In this document: positions 3,201-45,900 of the stretch, one piece after another
Layout of the letters: each line of letters starts with the position of its first letter
Position numbering within the stretch: the stretch's first letter is position 1
Assembly (NCBI RefSeq): GCF_032362555.1
Contig: NC_083511.1
Location: 2,294,001 to 2,358,000, forward strand
Length of the DNA: 64,000 nucleotides
Source of the DNA: Amyelois transitella
Lineage: Eukaryota; Arthropoda; Insecta; Lepidoptera; Pyralidae
Reading direction: 5' to 3'
Program-made: the position numbers and the translations under genes
The notes under the pieces: generated by a model
Databases searched by the model: none
What the model was told of the DNA's origin: nothing
What the model saw: only the letters and a program-made list of their open reading frames with translations

Positions 3201-6200
3201 TTGCGGGGTAGACAGAGCCAACAGTCTTGAAAAGACTGAATGGCCACGTTCAGCTATTTGGCTTAATGATAGAACCGAGATTCAAATAGTGACAGGTTGC
3301 TAGCCCATCGCCTAAAAGAGGAATCCTAAGTTTATAAGCCTATCCCTTAGTCGCCTTTTACGACATCCATGGGAAAGAGATGGAGTGGTCCTATTCTTTT
3401 TTGTAATAGTGCCGGGAACCACACGGCACGGTATTATGATATTTTTTGGATGATTACTCCATTTTTGGGACACCATCGTAGGATGTACCCCGACGCGGCC
3501 TCAGAGAAAAGTACAACATAAATATACAACCATAACAGACGCCAGAAAATCCTTTGAGAAAAAATATAGTAAATTAACATACATATTTTCTAACAAATTC
3601 AGATACTTACAAGGAGTCTCAACGAATCCACTTTGGCCAATCTCAAACTAGAGTCCAACTTCTCCACCAGCAACACCAAGCAATGCTCAGCGAATTCAGG
3701 CACCGCAGACAGACATGGACACAAAGCCGCAGCCAAATCCTCCCTGGACACCGCTGCAGGGTCATCAGGAGATGGATGGAAGTCAATTGGATAGTAACAC
3801 GATATGATGTCAAACATTTCTTCGACTAAGTGGCCTAGGGGGATGTTCACAAGGAATTCTGGTAAGAAATGGAATAGGAATAGTAAATTTCTAGGGTCTC
3901 TTTCGCCGTCCATTGCCGATATCACACCATAGACGAAATCTGGACCTAAGGTTTTCATATCTGCAATTAGAAAAGTTAGTTGTGATGTGTGGTTCCCAAA
4001 ACCAATAATAAAAAGAATAGGACCACTCCCTCTCGTTCCCATGGAGGTCGTAAAAGGCGACTAAGGGATAGGCTAACTTTGAATTCTTCTTTTCGGTGAT
4101 GGGCTAGCAACCTGTCACTATTTGAATCTCAATTCTATCATTAAGCCAAACGGCTGAACATGGCCTATCAGTTTTTTTTAAGACTTTTGTCTACCCCACA
4201 AGGGAATATTATTATATTATTATTTATAGACGTGACATTTGTATGTAGGTACAAAAAGTAACGTTTGTAGGGCATCAGGATATTCTGTTGTTGACAAGAG
4301 GTTCAGAGGAGGTTCACATATAATAACGTAGCTTTCGTCTTTCCGAAACTCTAGGCTCTTTTTATATAGCTTTGTTGAGCTGTGTGGCACAATGATGGCA
4401 TTGAGATTCAATGTTGCTCACCCATCGCCTTAAAATAGAATCCCAAGTTATCACCCTTTCCCTTAATGGCATTATCAATATGAACATTATTATTAACAGA
4501 TATTTTTGTAAGTTTGGCAACGGGTGGTGAGTGAGGAAATCAAGACCTCTGATTTTTATTGAGAACTGTAACATACTATTCATTTATTTACTCGTCTAGG
4601 TGTTACATACATAGATATAATCACGTCTATATCTATTGTGGGGTAGACAGAACCAAATGTCTTGTAAAGATTGATATGCCATGTTCAATTGTTTGGCTTA
4701 ATGATAAAATTGAGATTCAAAAAGTGAAAGGTCGCTAGTCCATCGCCTAATAGAAGAATCACAAGTTTATAAGCATATTCCTTGGTCACTTTTTACGACA
4801 TCCATGGGAAAGAGATGGAGTAGTCATATTCTTTTTCCTGTTGGTTGAACTAGGTGTAAGAACTAAGAGAAACTAAAAAGTTCTAGAGCAGATCAAAAGA
4901 ATATTAAGTAATGAATTTTTAACAGTTTTTTACAGCATAGTATGAACTAAGATAATACTTAATGGGAACTATATTTTCTATCACCAAAATTTATATTTGT
5001 CATCAAGTTGTATCACCTAATAAATAGATCTATCGCTACGAAATATTTTCGTTCTCAGATAAACAAAAATTGTTCCCAGGTATGAATTATCAAATTAATG
5101 TTAATATATGTGTAAAATAAGAGATCGATAACCAATAAAATTATATTGAATTACATGAATATAAACTTCGTTCTTATAATAATAGTTTTGTTACTTAAAT
5201 AATAGCTCTGTGCTCAGAATGGTAGATCTGTCACCAAATAAATCGATTATCGATCCCTGACTGCGACTCCTTTTTATTTGATATTTTGTCACCAATACAG
5301 TAGTAACATTTTATTTCGTTCAGATATTAAATTAATAGTATTCGTTACCAATTTAATACATCAATTTATAATTTTAATGAAAAAATGATCAAAGGGGCGG
5401 AGACAAATTGGCGCGCTTTAAAAATTGACCAATCCGGCCTCAACGATGGGTAGTAGTTAACTATTGATTATTTTAACTTTAATTAAGTGTTTTATCTACT
5501 ATTCTGCTAGCCATAAGCCAGCTATTTTAAACCAGCGCTGATTGTTCAGTGGTAATTATTTTCAACAATAAATTTTGATTATTTTAACTTTAATTGTTTT
5601 ATTTACTACTCTGCTAAAAATTTTATTTAAATATAATTTATACTACCAGTGGAAATTTAGAACCTTGGGAGTCTAGTTAATTAGCAGAATCTTTTGGTTG
5701 AAACGATGATGACAACCCTAATTTTTTATTTGAACTTAATGCAATTTTCTAGTGACATAATATGATTTATTGGTGATCTCTTTAAATTAGTTTGCTTAAA
5801 TACTTATTAGGACACACCTATTATAATACATACAAAAACATTTATTTGGTACTAGACCTTATATCTCAGGATTTTAGGTGATTTATTGTGGAACTGATTT
5901 TGCATTGTTTGGTGACTACATTTTGGTGACAGATCTACTATGTTGAGGACAAACCCTATTATTTAAGAAACACAAAACTAATTAAATTGGTGATAGCTTA
6001 AATGATACCCATACTTAATATTATGTAGTAACAGATTTGTAGTTCAGATGTCAAACTAAAGTTAACCCTTAGACCAATGTAATGTGGTACAGAATCAAAG
6101 AACAGCTAAGATGACATTGATAATTTTAACTGTGTTTAGTGAAACAAGTTAGTTTATAATATTCTAATTATTTTGATTGTGGGATGATGAAATAATCTAT

Positions 6201-8600: not shown

Positions 8601-9137
8601 ATGTCGCACAGAACACTGATAGACTTCATAGTAAAATATCATACACCACGACTGTTGAATAACATGGTGTTCTTTCCAAGCATAGGAAATTCTTATTTTG
8701 GACGGCGTCTAGGGTTCCCTGTAGTTTCATATTCTACTTCTACTCCAAAAGTACAATCTCCAAGAAGTTTCAGCACATCAACTACCACTCTGACTGGAGT
8801 CCCGCTAACAACGGCGCCCAACCAATATGAAGGAAAATTTCAGCTCATGTTTACATGCAAGAAATGCGATACAAGGAATACAAAATTCATTACAAAACTA
8901 GCTTATTACAAGGGTGTTGTAATTGTTATTTGTGATGGTTGTGAAAACAAACATTTGATAGCTGATAATTTAAATTGGTTCTCAGACATGAATGGAAAAA
9001 AGAATATAGAAGACATAGCAGCAGAAAAAGGAGAAACAGTGCAAAAAATCTTGTCCCCAGATTTAGAATACATAGCGACTGAGATGTTGAAGAATTTGGA
9101 GAAAGATGACTGTGATGTTCCATTATTGAAGAGCTAA
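8601..9137 (+). CDS. DNLZ: DNLZ / Zim17-type zinc finger, mitochondrial Hsp70 escort protein
   Basis: Single-exon gene of 178 residues, the same size class as animal DNLZ. The family (Zim17/Tim15/HEP1) keeps mitochondrial Hsp70 soluble and active for protein import and Fe-S biogenesis in the matrix. Residues 1-70 are rich in Ser/Thr/Arg and poor in acidic residues, fitting a presequence. The DNL zinc finger follows: FTCKKCDTR at about residue 85 and [18 protein letters not shown] at about 110 supply two CxxC pairs and the conserved HLIADNL block. The first ATG is at 8601; a second Met at residue 22 is possible but less likely. The TAA stop at 9135-9137 overlaps a 14-bp direct repeat linked to a tRNA-fragment insertion (see 9150). 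Confidence 0.93.
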
Positions 9138-9203
9138 CATGTGCAACTAAAGTCAGGTTGGCCGAGTGGTCTAAGGCGCCAGATTTAAAAACATGTGCAA
9201 CTA
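9136..9203 (+). repeat. tRNA-Leu 5' half flanked by 14-bp target site duplication
   Basis: Positions 9152-9189 read as the 5' half of a tRNA-Leu with anticodon TAA: acceptor 5' strand, D arm with an A-box (GGCCGAGTGGTC), anticodon stem, ending just past the anticodon. There is no 3' half and no B box. The perfect repeat AACATGTGCAACTA occurs at 9136-9149 and 9190-9203. This arrangement indicates insertion of a reverse-transcribed tRNA half into the DNLZ 3' UTR, not a tRNA gene. Confidence 0.85.
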
Positions 9204-16559: not shown

Positions 16560-19500
16560 ATGAGTTCCTCGGATTTATCTCTGATAGAAAAGCTGAGAAA
16601 GGAAAATTTAGACCAATTCTTTACATTGGTTCGCATGCATTTATCATTCGTAGTTGATATTAATACTGACGAGTAAGTAAAACTGAATCACATTTCCTCT
16701 TTTGATAATTTATAAAAAGTTTTCTTTTGTCAATTATAAATATTATTTTTTTCAGTGTTGATTGTTCAACAGATAAACCAAAGCAATTCCGATGGAATTT
16801 CCACAAGAAAACCAAACATATTGGTTCAAATTCTAGTCAAAATAGTAATAATAATGCCAAATCTGATGGTACATCCATAACTGAAGATGGATTATTGAGG
16901 CTAAATGAATTGATAGATTTTCTATCTAAACAAGAAAGTGAGTATAAATATAGTGTTTCACATTGGATCACATGGATCTAGGATGTCCTGTAGGTGATAC
17001 CTCTGGGACATCCTGGATCCTAATGGATCCAGTGTCCCAAATGTCCAGTGCACAACATTTGTTTATTGGTTTTACCAAGTACAAGAATTAATTGAATAGT
17101 TTTTTTACTACACACATACATCTATAGAAATATGGATAATGAAATTTCTATGATCCCCAAAGTATCATGTATATAAGCCCTTCCCTTGATTAACTTCCTC
17201 AATCCGCATGGAGAGAGAATGTACACAAACAGCAGCTCTCATACACTATACTACTTATTCACTAAGAGACCAACATGTAATGTATGGCAAAATGTAATAT
17301 CCTACTACTATTATAAAGGCGAAAGTTTGTATGGATGTATGGATGTTTGTTACTCTTTCACGCAAAAACTACTGAACCGATTACCATGAAATTTGGTATG
17401 TAGGTAGCTGAAGACCCAGAATAACACATAGGCTACTTTTTATCCCAGAGTTCCCGCGGGATTGATAGGGTTTCCATGCGGACGAAGTCGCGGGCGGCCT
17501 CTAGTGTTATTATAAGGGGAGTGTAATTGGGAATGTTGGAATTTGCAGGCTTAGACAAACATGGTTTGACCAAATCAGAGTCAATCTGTTTAAAGGTCAG
17601 GTTGAGAATGCTAGTATGCAGGATATGGTGTACAAAAAGTATGCAGGAATCACATAACCCTCTGGGATATTTCCTTAGGGTTTTTATTATAGACATTTTA
17701 CAAGCATTTTACATTTTAAAACATAGTCTTGATATTCCTGAAATTTCACATACTTTTTTTCTAAAATAAAAGTTGCCAGGGCTAACAATAACTAAAAATA
17801 ACAAATACAACTTTAATAAAAAACACACTCAAAAATTTAATGCTATGTATTGTTTTTAATTACAGATGTAACACAAGAAGGTATATTTCGACGCACTGGC
17901 TCTCTCAGTCGGCAGCAGGAGTTACGTCAGCTGCTCCTCACCGGCTCTAGTTTGCAGCTGGAGGAGGGACGGTTCTCTGTTCATGACTGTGCTTCAGTCC
18001 TCAAGGGTTTCTTAGCAGAATTACCTCAGCCGCTGTTGATGGATCAGTATTATCAGACATATTGCACTTTGGCTAGTAAGTAAAAGTAAAGAACACAAGC
18101 ATATTTTGTAAAACGGAAATATTAAGTCCATTTTAATAGAAATGTAAAAATAATAATTGCCTGTTGGTGGCATATGCATATATTTTTTTGTTGTACACTA
18201 AAGTGTATTCTATTCTCTATCCATCAAGGATTTCTTACTGCACCAGTAATCACTGTTGTGAGTGCTTATCTAGTAACATTTACTTCTATGAAATCTACAA
18301 GAAGAGAATATACTCTTTTCTACTTTCTGAGAACTGAACTACAAGGCCTCAAACCAACAGTGCTGTTGATAACTATTATAAGCTTTCTTCTGTCGTGTGG
18401 TTCCCAGCAACTAAGCATAGGACCACTACATCGCATTCCCATGGATTTTGTAAAAGGCGACTAAGGAAATAGGAGCACATTCATCTAGTGCAAGCTTCCA
18501 TGCTGGTCATGAAAAATAAACATGGTTCATCAGCCACACCTCGAGCAAATGGTAAAGGTAATCAAGTGAAAAGCTAATAAACTTGGGATTCTTCTTTTAG
18601 GCGATAGGCAAGCAACCTATCACTTTTGGAATCTCAATTCCATTATCTATACTAACATTATAAAGCTGAAGAGTTTGTTTGTTTGAACGCGCTAATCTCA
18701 GGAACTACTGGTTTGAATTGAAAAATTCTATTTACGTTGTATAGACCATTTATCGAGGAAGGCTTTAGGCTATATAACATCACGCTGCAACCATAAGGAG
18801 CAAAGAACTAATGGAATATGTGAAAAAAATGGAGAAAATTATTCATCCTTGAGGGTTTAAAATTATTCATCCTCCTATGATGCTCAAAATAACTATACCA
18901 CGCGGATGAAGTCGCGGGCACAGCTAGTTAAGCCACAAGGGATAAAATTTTGATTGTATATATGAATGTTCTTTCTTGCAACCGCAGCCCAATACCCGCC
19001 AAACGCAGAGTCGTCTGAAACCAAACTCCTCACGGCGTTGCAACTGCTCTTACTTCTACTGGCCCCGTCACACCGGAGTTTCTTGGAGAGATTGCTGACA
19101 TTGCTCCGTCTGGTGGCCGACAACGAAGCTTCTAACCGCATGTCTCCAGATACACTGGCTACCATGTTCACTCCTCACTTACTGTGTCCGAGAAAGGTTA
19201 GTTGTTAACTTATTGGAATTAAAAGTTCTCTGCATTATCTAACTAAATCTATTATATTATCTAACAGCGTTGTATCGCTGGGTTAACCCAATGCTGTTAG
19301 ATAATGCCATTGGCATTAAGTCCGCCTGATTTTATTAAGTACAATATAGTAGAAATAAATCATAAAGCCGTAGTGCGCTTGTCTGTGACACAATAGGTTC
19401 TCGGTTCGAATCCCGGCCAGGGCATGATGTGAAACCAACTTTATCTGATTAGCCTGGGTTTTGGATGTATATCTATATATGTCTATAAAAAAAGCTGCAG

Positions 19501-42900: not shown

Positions 42901-45900
42901 AAAAGAGGACATTGACTAACTTATTGACTAACCAAGTAGCCCAAAACGCTGAATCTAGAAAATCATTTAGATAGAGGTGTGATACACTGAGAAGAATTCT
43001 CCCTAAATTCTCGCGGGTAGGGAAATTACTTACGTGGGCGGTAGGTACCGCGAGTGTACTCAAATAAAGATGAGAATGAAAATTAAAAAAACGAATAGCA
43101 TATTTTTTTTATTAAAATTCATGGCAATTGAATACAATATTTCAAACTCGAAATGTCTCTTCTAAAAAAAATAACGTCACAGTTTCCCATTTACTTTCCG
43201 AATGCGGGGCTCTCTACGGCTCATTAATTTTATTTATGGTACTTATTATGAAACTTTATAATAGGAACTCGGATATTGTTTTTATGACAAAGTTTCTACG
43301 GCCATTTGATCGTTAATGTATGTAAAGTATAATAAAATAAAAGATTTGGGTAATTATTGTTTACTTTCTTCTTCCTCCAGGCTGATGAACTCACGGTAAC
43401 TGATATTAAACAAAAATTACTTCTCAGGATAAGAGCCTGAGGTGCGCATTGTGATCCATGGGATCTTTTGTTTTTTACAAATTAAATTGTGAACGTCGGC
43501 GTTTGAATATTAACTGATACTCTAACGGTGAGAGAAAGCATCGTGAGGAAACTTGCCCATTCAGGCAAATGGATGGATAACTATGATCAGGCCAATAGGT
43601 ATTGGGTTCCCCTGCAAAGGTTGCAGAGGTCAGATGGAGTCGCTTCTTGTGAGAACCTGACTCGCCTAATCCAGGATCCATGGTCAAAGCCGTACTAAAA
43701 GCCAGGTCATGTCATGACGGAAAATGATTTATATCTATAATTCTATATATATATATAACCTAAAAATATCAATGTAATACAGCTAAAGTTGGCAAACGAA
43801 GCATACTCTGTCGGGGTAGACAGATTGTAGATCTGATTATGTGTATGTATTCTTATGGATTTATAGCACAGTACGTTTACAAATCATTGAACCAGCGTCC
43901 TCCGTTCGGCTAAACGTTTCCGGCCCCCGAATTTCCGAATGGTCCCTCTATTTCTATTTTGTTCCATTTGGCCTCGTCCGCTCGACTGGATACTGCGAAT
44001 CCATTCGTTGTAAGTGGTATAGGCAAGACTGAGGAATAGGTAATAAGATACAGGGATACGTTCTTATGTAAGTAATGAGAAAACGATATATTTTGAACGA
44101 AAAAAAAAGCTGAACGTGGACTTTCAGTCTTTTCAAGAAGTCTTTGTTCCCCGCGTGGGATAGAGACGTGATGATAATGTATGTATGTACAAAGAAACTC
44201 AACCATGATCCAACTTAATGTTACGCTGTTCGGATCACGGAGATTATCTGATCTAGTTATACCTACCTACACTTAGATCTCCATCTAGGTGTCATCAAAA
44301 AATATGCGTCAAACATTCCAACACACGCGTCTCAATAATTTACACGTCTATCCGTGGGGATTTATATAACTGGGACAGCGGCTACAACAAAATATGGAGG
44401 CCCGCATATAATATAGATAAATTAGCTCTTGATTAATGGTCGAGATCCTTATATATTTTTATAACATAAATGGTATTTACTTACATGACTTTTCTGGTGT
44501 GTATTTCGTTTTATATCTTAGAGATGCCCAGGGCTTTCCGAAGAGAGGGTGAAACCGGAATAAGTGACAGTGAGTTGATAGAATACCGTGAGGTTCCCAG
44601 AATATAATAGATTTGAGTGCTTTTAACCTCACTCTGTCTGGTGGTAAGCAAAATGAAGCCTAAGATGGTGCACACAAGCTCAAATAGTGCTTATTCACTC
44701 TTGCCTTGCAAATTCTTTTTTTTTAACTGGCAACAGGGAAGTATAGGCGAGGAGTAGCAGTCGCACGCGGCATCAGCCAACTCCTATCAGAAGACGACGG
44801 CCTCTGTGGTGCAGCGGTAGTGCGCTTGTTTGTGACACCGGGGGTCCCGGGGTTCGAATCCCGGTCAGGGCATGATGAGAAAAGAACTTATTCTGATTGG
44901 CCTGGGTCTTGGATGTTTATCTATACAGGGTGACATTTAAAACAACTGCATCCTTTTAAACATAGAATATACCCATGCTTCTGAGCCGTTTAAGCCTATT
45001 TTTATTTAAATTAAACGTCATCATTTTCACATTTAAAAAACCCTCAAAAAAACTACTTCACACGCTTTAATACAGACCAATACTACAAAAAGAAATTAAA
45101 ACTAAACATGTAAATAAATGTCTGAAAAATAAATTATTTTTCTAGTAACAAGATCAAGTAAAGTACAGAGTTGACGAGATCACTCAGCTGAATGAATTGT
45201 GTCGTTGACCTCTGAATCTTACGCGTCGCTTTTGGTATTTGTCGCGGGGTGATATGACGTATGTATGATCGTGGATTATGCTATTTTATTTTTTCGTACT
45301 TTCTGAAGTATGAACCGATAATTTTCTTTTAACGTTTATAAATATTCTTTAGATGAGTACACTTAACAGTTAAATTTATGCAGTTGAATTAAAAGTCACC
45401 CTGTATAAGTATTTATTATAAAAATATAGTATCGTTGAGTTAGTGTCTCGTAACACAAGTCTCAGACTTACTTCGAGGCTAACTCAATCTGTGTAATTTG
45501 TCCCATAAATATTTATATTTATTTAAATTTAATCGCTGCGTAGTACGACAGACTAGCGTTGGGCGAAGACCGCGAAGTCGCTCTAGAGTCAAAAGAAACC
45601 CCCTTTTTTACCCAAAGTGTTAAATACATGATGTGTGTTTACATAATAGAATGATCGTCTTATTGGAAGGATGTAGCAACTGCTAACAATACCGAAATTA
45701 AACCAACGTCAGTATTACACGCCCTATAATCAAATTGTTAATTCTAAGGTGCCACCTGCGACATGTCTGCGATCCAATATGTATGCAAACAGGCATTCCA
45801 GGGAACTTGTTATTTATACGTCGTCGGTGCGAGCAATTTAGCTGAAATAGACGCTATTGAAATACTAGCATTCTGGTACAATTGGCTTGGCTAAGCTTCG

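Follow-up and report, generated by a model that had tools for sequence, protein, structure and literature searches.

How did the front half of a tRNA come to lie directly behind the stop codon of a protein-coding gene, enclosed by two identical copies of a short sequence? We addressed this question in a moth genome of 327 Mb in 33 contigs, the window being the stretch of 64 kb that was analysed in full (C7:2294001-2358000; positions below are counted from its first letter). The gene is an open reading frame of 178 amino acids that carries a stretch matching the Pfam domain zf-DNL (E = 8.4e-29), and on this match we call the host gene DNLZ-like. Reading on from position 9136, there follow a 14-bp repeat, AA, the first 37 nt of tRNA-Leu(TAA), a single A and the 14-bp repeat again. 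The features of the locus are these:

8601 to 9137, forward strand: host gene open reading frame, DNLZ-like (zf-DNL domain), from the Pfam match and the reading frame; stop codon TAA at 9135 to 9137
9136 to 9149, forward strand: putative target-site duplication, copy 1; perfect 14-bp repeat that shares its first two bases with the end of the stop codon
9150 to 9151, forward strand: AA linking repeat copy 1 to base 1 of the tRNA; either an untemplated addition or derived from the 5' leader of the C12 tRNA gene, likewise AA
9152 to 9188, forward strand: 5' half of tRNA-Leu(TAA), from base 1 to the last anticodon base; 37 of 37 positions identical to two genomic genes
9189, forward strand: one additional A in place of G37 of the tRNA; it may be untemplated, a misread G37, a later mutation or what remains of a short oligo(A) tail
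9190 to 9203, forward strand: putative target-site duplication, copy 2; perfect 14-bp repeat

The 37 nt are 100% identical to bases 1 to 37 of the tRNA-Leu(TAA) genes that this genome carries at C12 and C16, both of them full-length, identical to each other over 84 nt and named tRNA-Leu with anticodon TAA by ARAGORN. The half covers 37 of the 84 nt of the tRNA and stops at the last anticodon base, inside the single-stranded loop; after 9188, where the tRNA continues with G37, the window has A and no further tRNA sequence. The first-pass annotation of this DNA had drawn the half as 9152 to 9189 and had proposed its alignment to the tRNA-Leu(TAA) of the same genome as a check; the alignment bears out the identity of the tRNA (37 of 37 positions in both genes) and the end at the anticodon, and moves the last matching base back to 9188. 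We rejected tRNA-Leu(CAA) as the source: its gene at C25 (Lys(ctt) according to ARAGORN, in our reading an intron-containing Leu(CAA)) carries A at base 7, C at base 16 and CTCAA in the loop. With 37 of 84 nt and left uncalled by ARAGORN run over the window, the half is neither a complete tRNA gene nor a complete retropseudogene. The window gave no Rfam match at the gathering threshold, and the Rfam tRNA model recognised the half only below threshold, as a 3'-truncated match (15.8 bits; E = 0.21). Folded alone the half had no excess stability (z = -0.87), and viral contigs scanned with the half and with its 24-nt core yielded 0 matches each.

Examination of the flanking repeat leaves little room for coincidence. 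The two copies of AACATGTGCAACTA are identical at 14 of 14 positions and form the only non-simple exact 14-mer pair at a spacing of 30 to 80 nt in the 64-kb window, and no comparable pair arose at that spacing when the window was simulated 60 times with a second-order Markov model, on which ground a chance origin was rejected; a 14-mer match between two specified places has a probability of about 3e-8. No third copy of AACATGTGCAACTA was present in the window when up to two mismatches were allowed. Under the wider spacing of 20 to 120 nt the window holds two more non-simple 14-mer pairs (5464/5575 and 18835/18859), and the former is an exact direct repeat (5464-5477 and 5575-5588, 111 nt apart) whose likeness extends beyond the 14 bp. 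The first copy begins, as had been noted in the first reading, one base into the stop codon (TAA at 9135-9137, repeat from 9136), and the stop codon is preserved because the duplicated segment opens with its last two bases; judged by the sequence, either copy could be the original one. The earlier statement that the repeat flanks the half perfectly applies to the identity of the copies and not to the junctions, where AA (9150-9151) and A (9189) intervene.

A half of this kind could be what is left of a SINE derived from a tRNA, or of a complete tRNA retropseudogene whose 3' part was lost later, and a SINE-like tRNA-related repeat is indeed present in the window (44800, 19366). At 44800-44872 ARAGORN calls a tRNA-His, and this tRNA-like part together with about 50 nt beyond it recurs at about 19366-19477 (83% over 113 nt), a pair that appears to be the head of a tRNA-derived SINE; the direct repeats around the two copies were uninformative on the LINE partner. 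The searches for relatives of the half itself gave a different picture from that expected of a remnant. The full tRNA-Leu(TAA) used as query found five matches, namely the two genes, the half and two relatives at 78-79% that are Leu(TAG) by ARAGORN. The Leu/Ser box-A pattern had 29 exact matches in the genome and its reversed control 0, and box B lies downstream of 28 of the 29 (18 of 18 newly fetched and 10 of 10 others), the half in the window being the sole match lacking it. Surveys with two more tRNAs, which like that of Leu/Ser detect only copies close to an intact tRNA and whose counts are possibly lower bounds, found no 5' half among 13 matches to tRNA-Asp (all spanning 1-72 of 72) or among 8 matches to tRNA-Lys(TTT) (seven full-length, one at 80% over 3-63). 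The tRNA list behind the searches draws on 63 scored candidates of 37,413 found at first look. Throughout 355 kb of loci plus window (overlaps included) the half was the only lone tRNA half, beside 95 full-length tRNA regions in which overlapping loci are counted repeatedly; the other partial rows there were, by eye, Leu/Ser genes split by the grouping, a gene cut by the end of its locus, or SINE-like pieces.

Tested against what defines a tRNA-derived SINE (boxes A and B, a body, a 3' tail and many copies), the insert has no box B and no body between its repeats, and no second partial copy was found; given these absences we discarded the SINE remnant. The half is moreover 100% identical to a real tRNA-Leu(TAA), and since a single base separates its truncated end from the perfect repeat, a later deletion must have ended almost exactly there, which makes a remnant of either sort very improbable. 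As far as seen in these sequences, the half belongs to no repeat family. Membership in a longer repeat consensus, which the first-pass annotation had named as the finding that would speak against its reading, was not found (28 of the 29 box-A matches have box B, the half has none), and the search for further tRNA 5' halves that it had suggested brought up no second one among the Leu/Ser, Asp and Lys types.

Two other features of the tRNA genes were observed. Many of the Leu genes and some of the Ser genes (L002, L003, L064-L076) have in common an upstream element like TAATTTCRCCA, about 12-25 nt before the tRNA, which is possibly a Pol III upstream promoter element; a loose version of this motif occurs in 13 of the 20 genes checked and is absent from a cluster of five Ser genes (L059-L063). 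A Leu tRNA with the acceptor arm of Leu(CAA) and a different anticodon arm (its anticodon is CAG by eye) is encoded in four of the 18 fetched loci (L067, L073, L075, L076).

Seen directly in the DNA are the half, its identity to tRNA genes of its own genome, both of its boundaries, the perfect duplication and a lone box A unaccompanied by box B. The insert begins at most 2 nt from base 1 of the mature tRNA and ends in the anticodon loop, and from two ends defined by an RNA together with a target duplication we infer target-primed reverse transcription by a LINE-type enzyme. The reading that we prefer, to which we give a probability of about 0.8, is a single event in which a 3'-truncated tRNA was inserted by target priming of the LINE type, the counterpart of a mammalian tailless retropseudogene. 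Under this reading a LINE-type reverse transcriptase/endonuclease would have nicked the 3' end of the DNLZ-like gene at GCT/AACATG, the nicked strand would have primed the copying of a 3'-truncated tRNA-Leu(UAA) from the anticodon loop toward the 5' end, and the joining of the second strand would have left the 14-bp target duplication. That the intermediate was an RNA, that a LINE supplied the enzyme and that priming ran in this direction accordingly belong to the interpretation. The central claim of the first-pass annotation, that a tRNA-Leu(TAA) 5' half was retroposed with a target duplication, finds support in the 37/37 identity, in the repeat and in the lack of a longer repeat.

The bases at the 5' junction bear on whether an RNA was involved at all. 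AA and the half together are identical to the C12 locus at 39 of 39 nt, including two bases upstream of the tRNA, whereas the C16 gene has AT instead of AA. These two flanking bases would agree with an event at the DNA level, in which a fragment of the tRNA gene was captured during the repair of a staggered break and fill-in produced the 14-bp repeat. However, AA precedes base 1 in 4 of the 20 Leu/Ser genes checked, and the two-base match is weak because of this; nor does capture of DNA predict that one end should fall within 2 nt of the mature 5' end and the other in the anticodon loop. We therefore consider capture unlikely. That AA is the leader of an unprocessed transcript has likewise weak evidence in these two bases, an untemplated addition being as likely.

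If the half was indeed copied from an RNA, its template may have been cut in the anticodon loop beforehand or may have been an intact molecule primed internally, two models that carry similar weight. The 3' junction reads TTT-AAAAA-CATG; of its five A the tRNA can account for two and the repeat for two more, with one left over; depending on how the run is divided, the oligo(A) at the junction amounts to between 1 and 5 A. In the first model the template was an anticodon-cleaved 5' half with a short oligo(A) tail, on which TT of the target was primed, and the cut would have been made after U34 (3-5 A added) or after A36 (1-3 A added). Such a tail would be the simplest source of the A left over, its alternatives being an untemplated base, a misread G37 and a later mutation. 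Halves of this sort end in a 2',3'-cyclic phosphate, which must come off before any tailing, and AA before base 1, should it be a leader, would mean that the template was not a mature tRNA. A further count against the cleaved half is that tRNA-Asp, the major source of halves in BmN4 cells, left no half among its 13 genomic matches here. According to PMC8302750, 5' halves are abundant in the Bombyx germ-cell line BmN4, where they make up about 65% of the tRNA-derived reads of a cyclic-phosphate library, and tRNA-Asp is cut there between anticodon bases 1 and 2. By analogy this cut would correspond to U34/A35 in tRNA-Leu(UAA), a fit of position and not of sequence, because the Bombyx nuclease, RNase kappa, cuts mainly at C-A in the same study and U34-A35 is U-A. 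The region 1-37 nt is also described as frequently incorporated in tRNA/LINE-1 chimeras (PMC13174262), whereas oligoadenylated truncated intermediates of human 5S and U2 were sought and not found in the experiments described in PMC5322556. We hold the cleaved half tentatively, at a little short of an even chance.

In the second model the tRNA or pre-tRNA was intact, and the nicked target paired with its anticodon loop. Internal priming on intact RNA is the published explanation, favoured by its authors, of the same anatomy in mammals (PMC5322556), and an anticodon-cleaved template, which the first-pass annotation had taken to be implied, does not follow from that anatomy. The element ends in a single-stranded loop containing A, and TT at the primer end can pair with A35-A36. 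That pairing, however, predicts two A before CATG instead of five, and slippage or untemplated addition would be required. Beyond AA, the only contiguous bases that the target and the anticodon loop have in common, similarity between target and tRNA is at background (4 of 14 from G37; 6 of 14 from A35, a value also reached by three of the 70 remaining offsets). Internal priming thus seems possible, at rather less than an even chance. Because the run of five A has one A that is not supplied and because the target shares just two contiguous bases with the loop, we lean slightly to a template that was already cut. Improbable, in our judgement, is a template that combines both junctions, a nuclear pre-tRNA from the C12 gene, shortened at its 3' end and oligoadenylated, with AA as leader and a short A tail. 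Such oligoadenylated pre-tRNA fragments are expected as intermediates of TRAMP/exosome-type decay.

The insertion under the preferred reading, of a 3'-truncated tRNA by a LINE-type enzyme, is of a known kind, its new aspect being a probable insect case. Tailless retropseudogenes, a class described by Schmitz et al. 2004 as cited in Noll et al. 2015 (PMC5322556), are in the latter's account truncated in single-stranded regions and flanked by target-site duplications, and include copies derived from tRNAs; the first-pass remark that tRNA-derived insertions are mostly SINEs or whole tRNAs leaves them out of account. Noll et al. tie them to a relaxed L1 in therians and anole, report none found in platypus and chicken and mention eight tailless U2 copies in maize. 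The half resembles this class in its retained 5' end, its truncation in a loop and its flanking repeat, and differs in coming from a moth, in the one copy found, in the extra A at the junction and in a poorer fit to the consensus, the nick site CT/AACATGT agreeing with TT/WAAAAWW at 5 of 9 positions (our own count; consensus as given in PMC5322556). An insect LINE producing such an insert would need a similarly relaxed choice of template. In the tRNA/LINE-1 chimeras of a 2026 study (PMC13174262) the tRNA part is typically of half length, target-site duplications measure 9-19 bp in eight cases checked and cleaved tRNA halves are proposed as templates; the length of our half (1-37) and its 14-bp duplication are alike, but those tRNA parts are joined to LINE-1, mostly antisense, and no LINE sequence lies between the repeats here. 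With the lepidopteran SINEs HaSE1/2 (PMC3272025) and PxSE1-3 (PMC8010984) the half shares tRNA-related sequence and target duplications; those elements have boxes A and B, a body, a tail and many copies, and the half has no box B, body or second copy. Among the titles, abstracts and passages searched in an open library of papers we recognised no report of a tailless tRNA retropseudogene from an insect.

The coding frame and the stop codon of the DNLZ-like gene are intact despite the insert, and because they are unharmed the effect of the insertion on the host gene is most likely neutral. The event had been called young in the first reading, with which the perfect repeat is compatible; the limit on its age is nevertheless loose, as zero changes at 65 sites (37 of the insert and twice 14 of the repeat) place the 95% limit at about 16 million generations under an assumed mutation rate of 2.9e-9. 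One neutral-looking case leaves the general picture unchanged. If the event is what it seems, insertions of loop-truncated small RNAs occur beyond the L1 of therians and anole, in the genome of a moth, and if the pre-tRNA of the C12 gene was in fact the template, a LINE would have fossilised an intermediate of RNA surveillance in the insect germ line. Each such insertion would be a snapshot of the tRNA fragments that reach the reverse transcriptase in the germ line.
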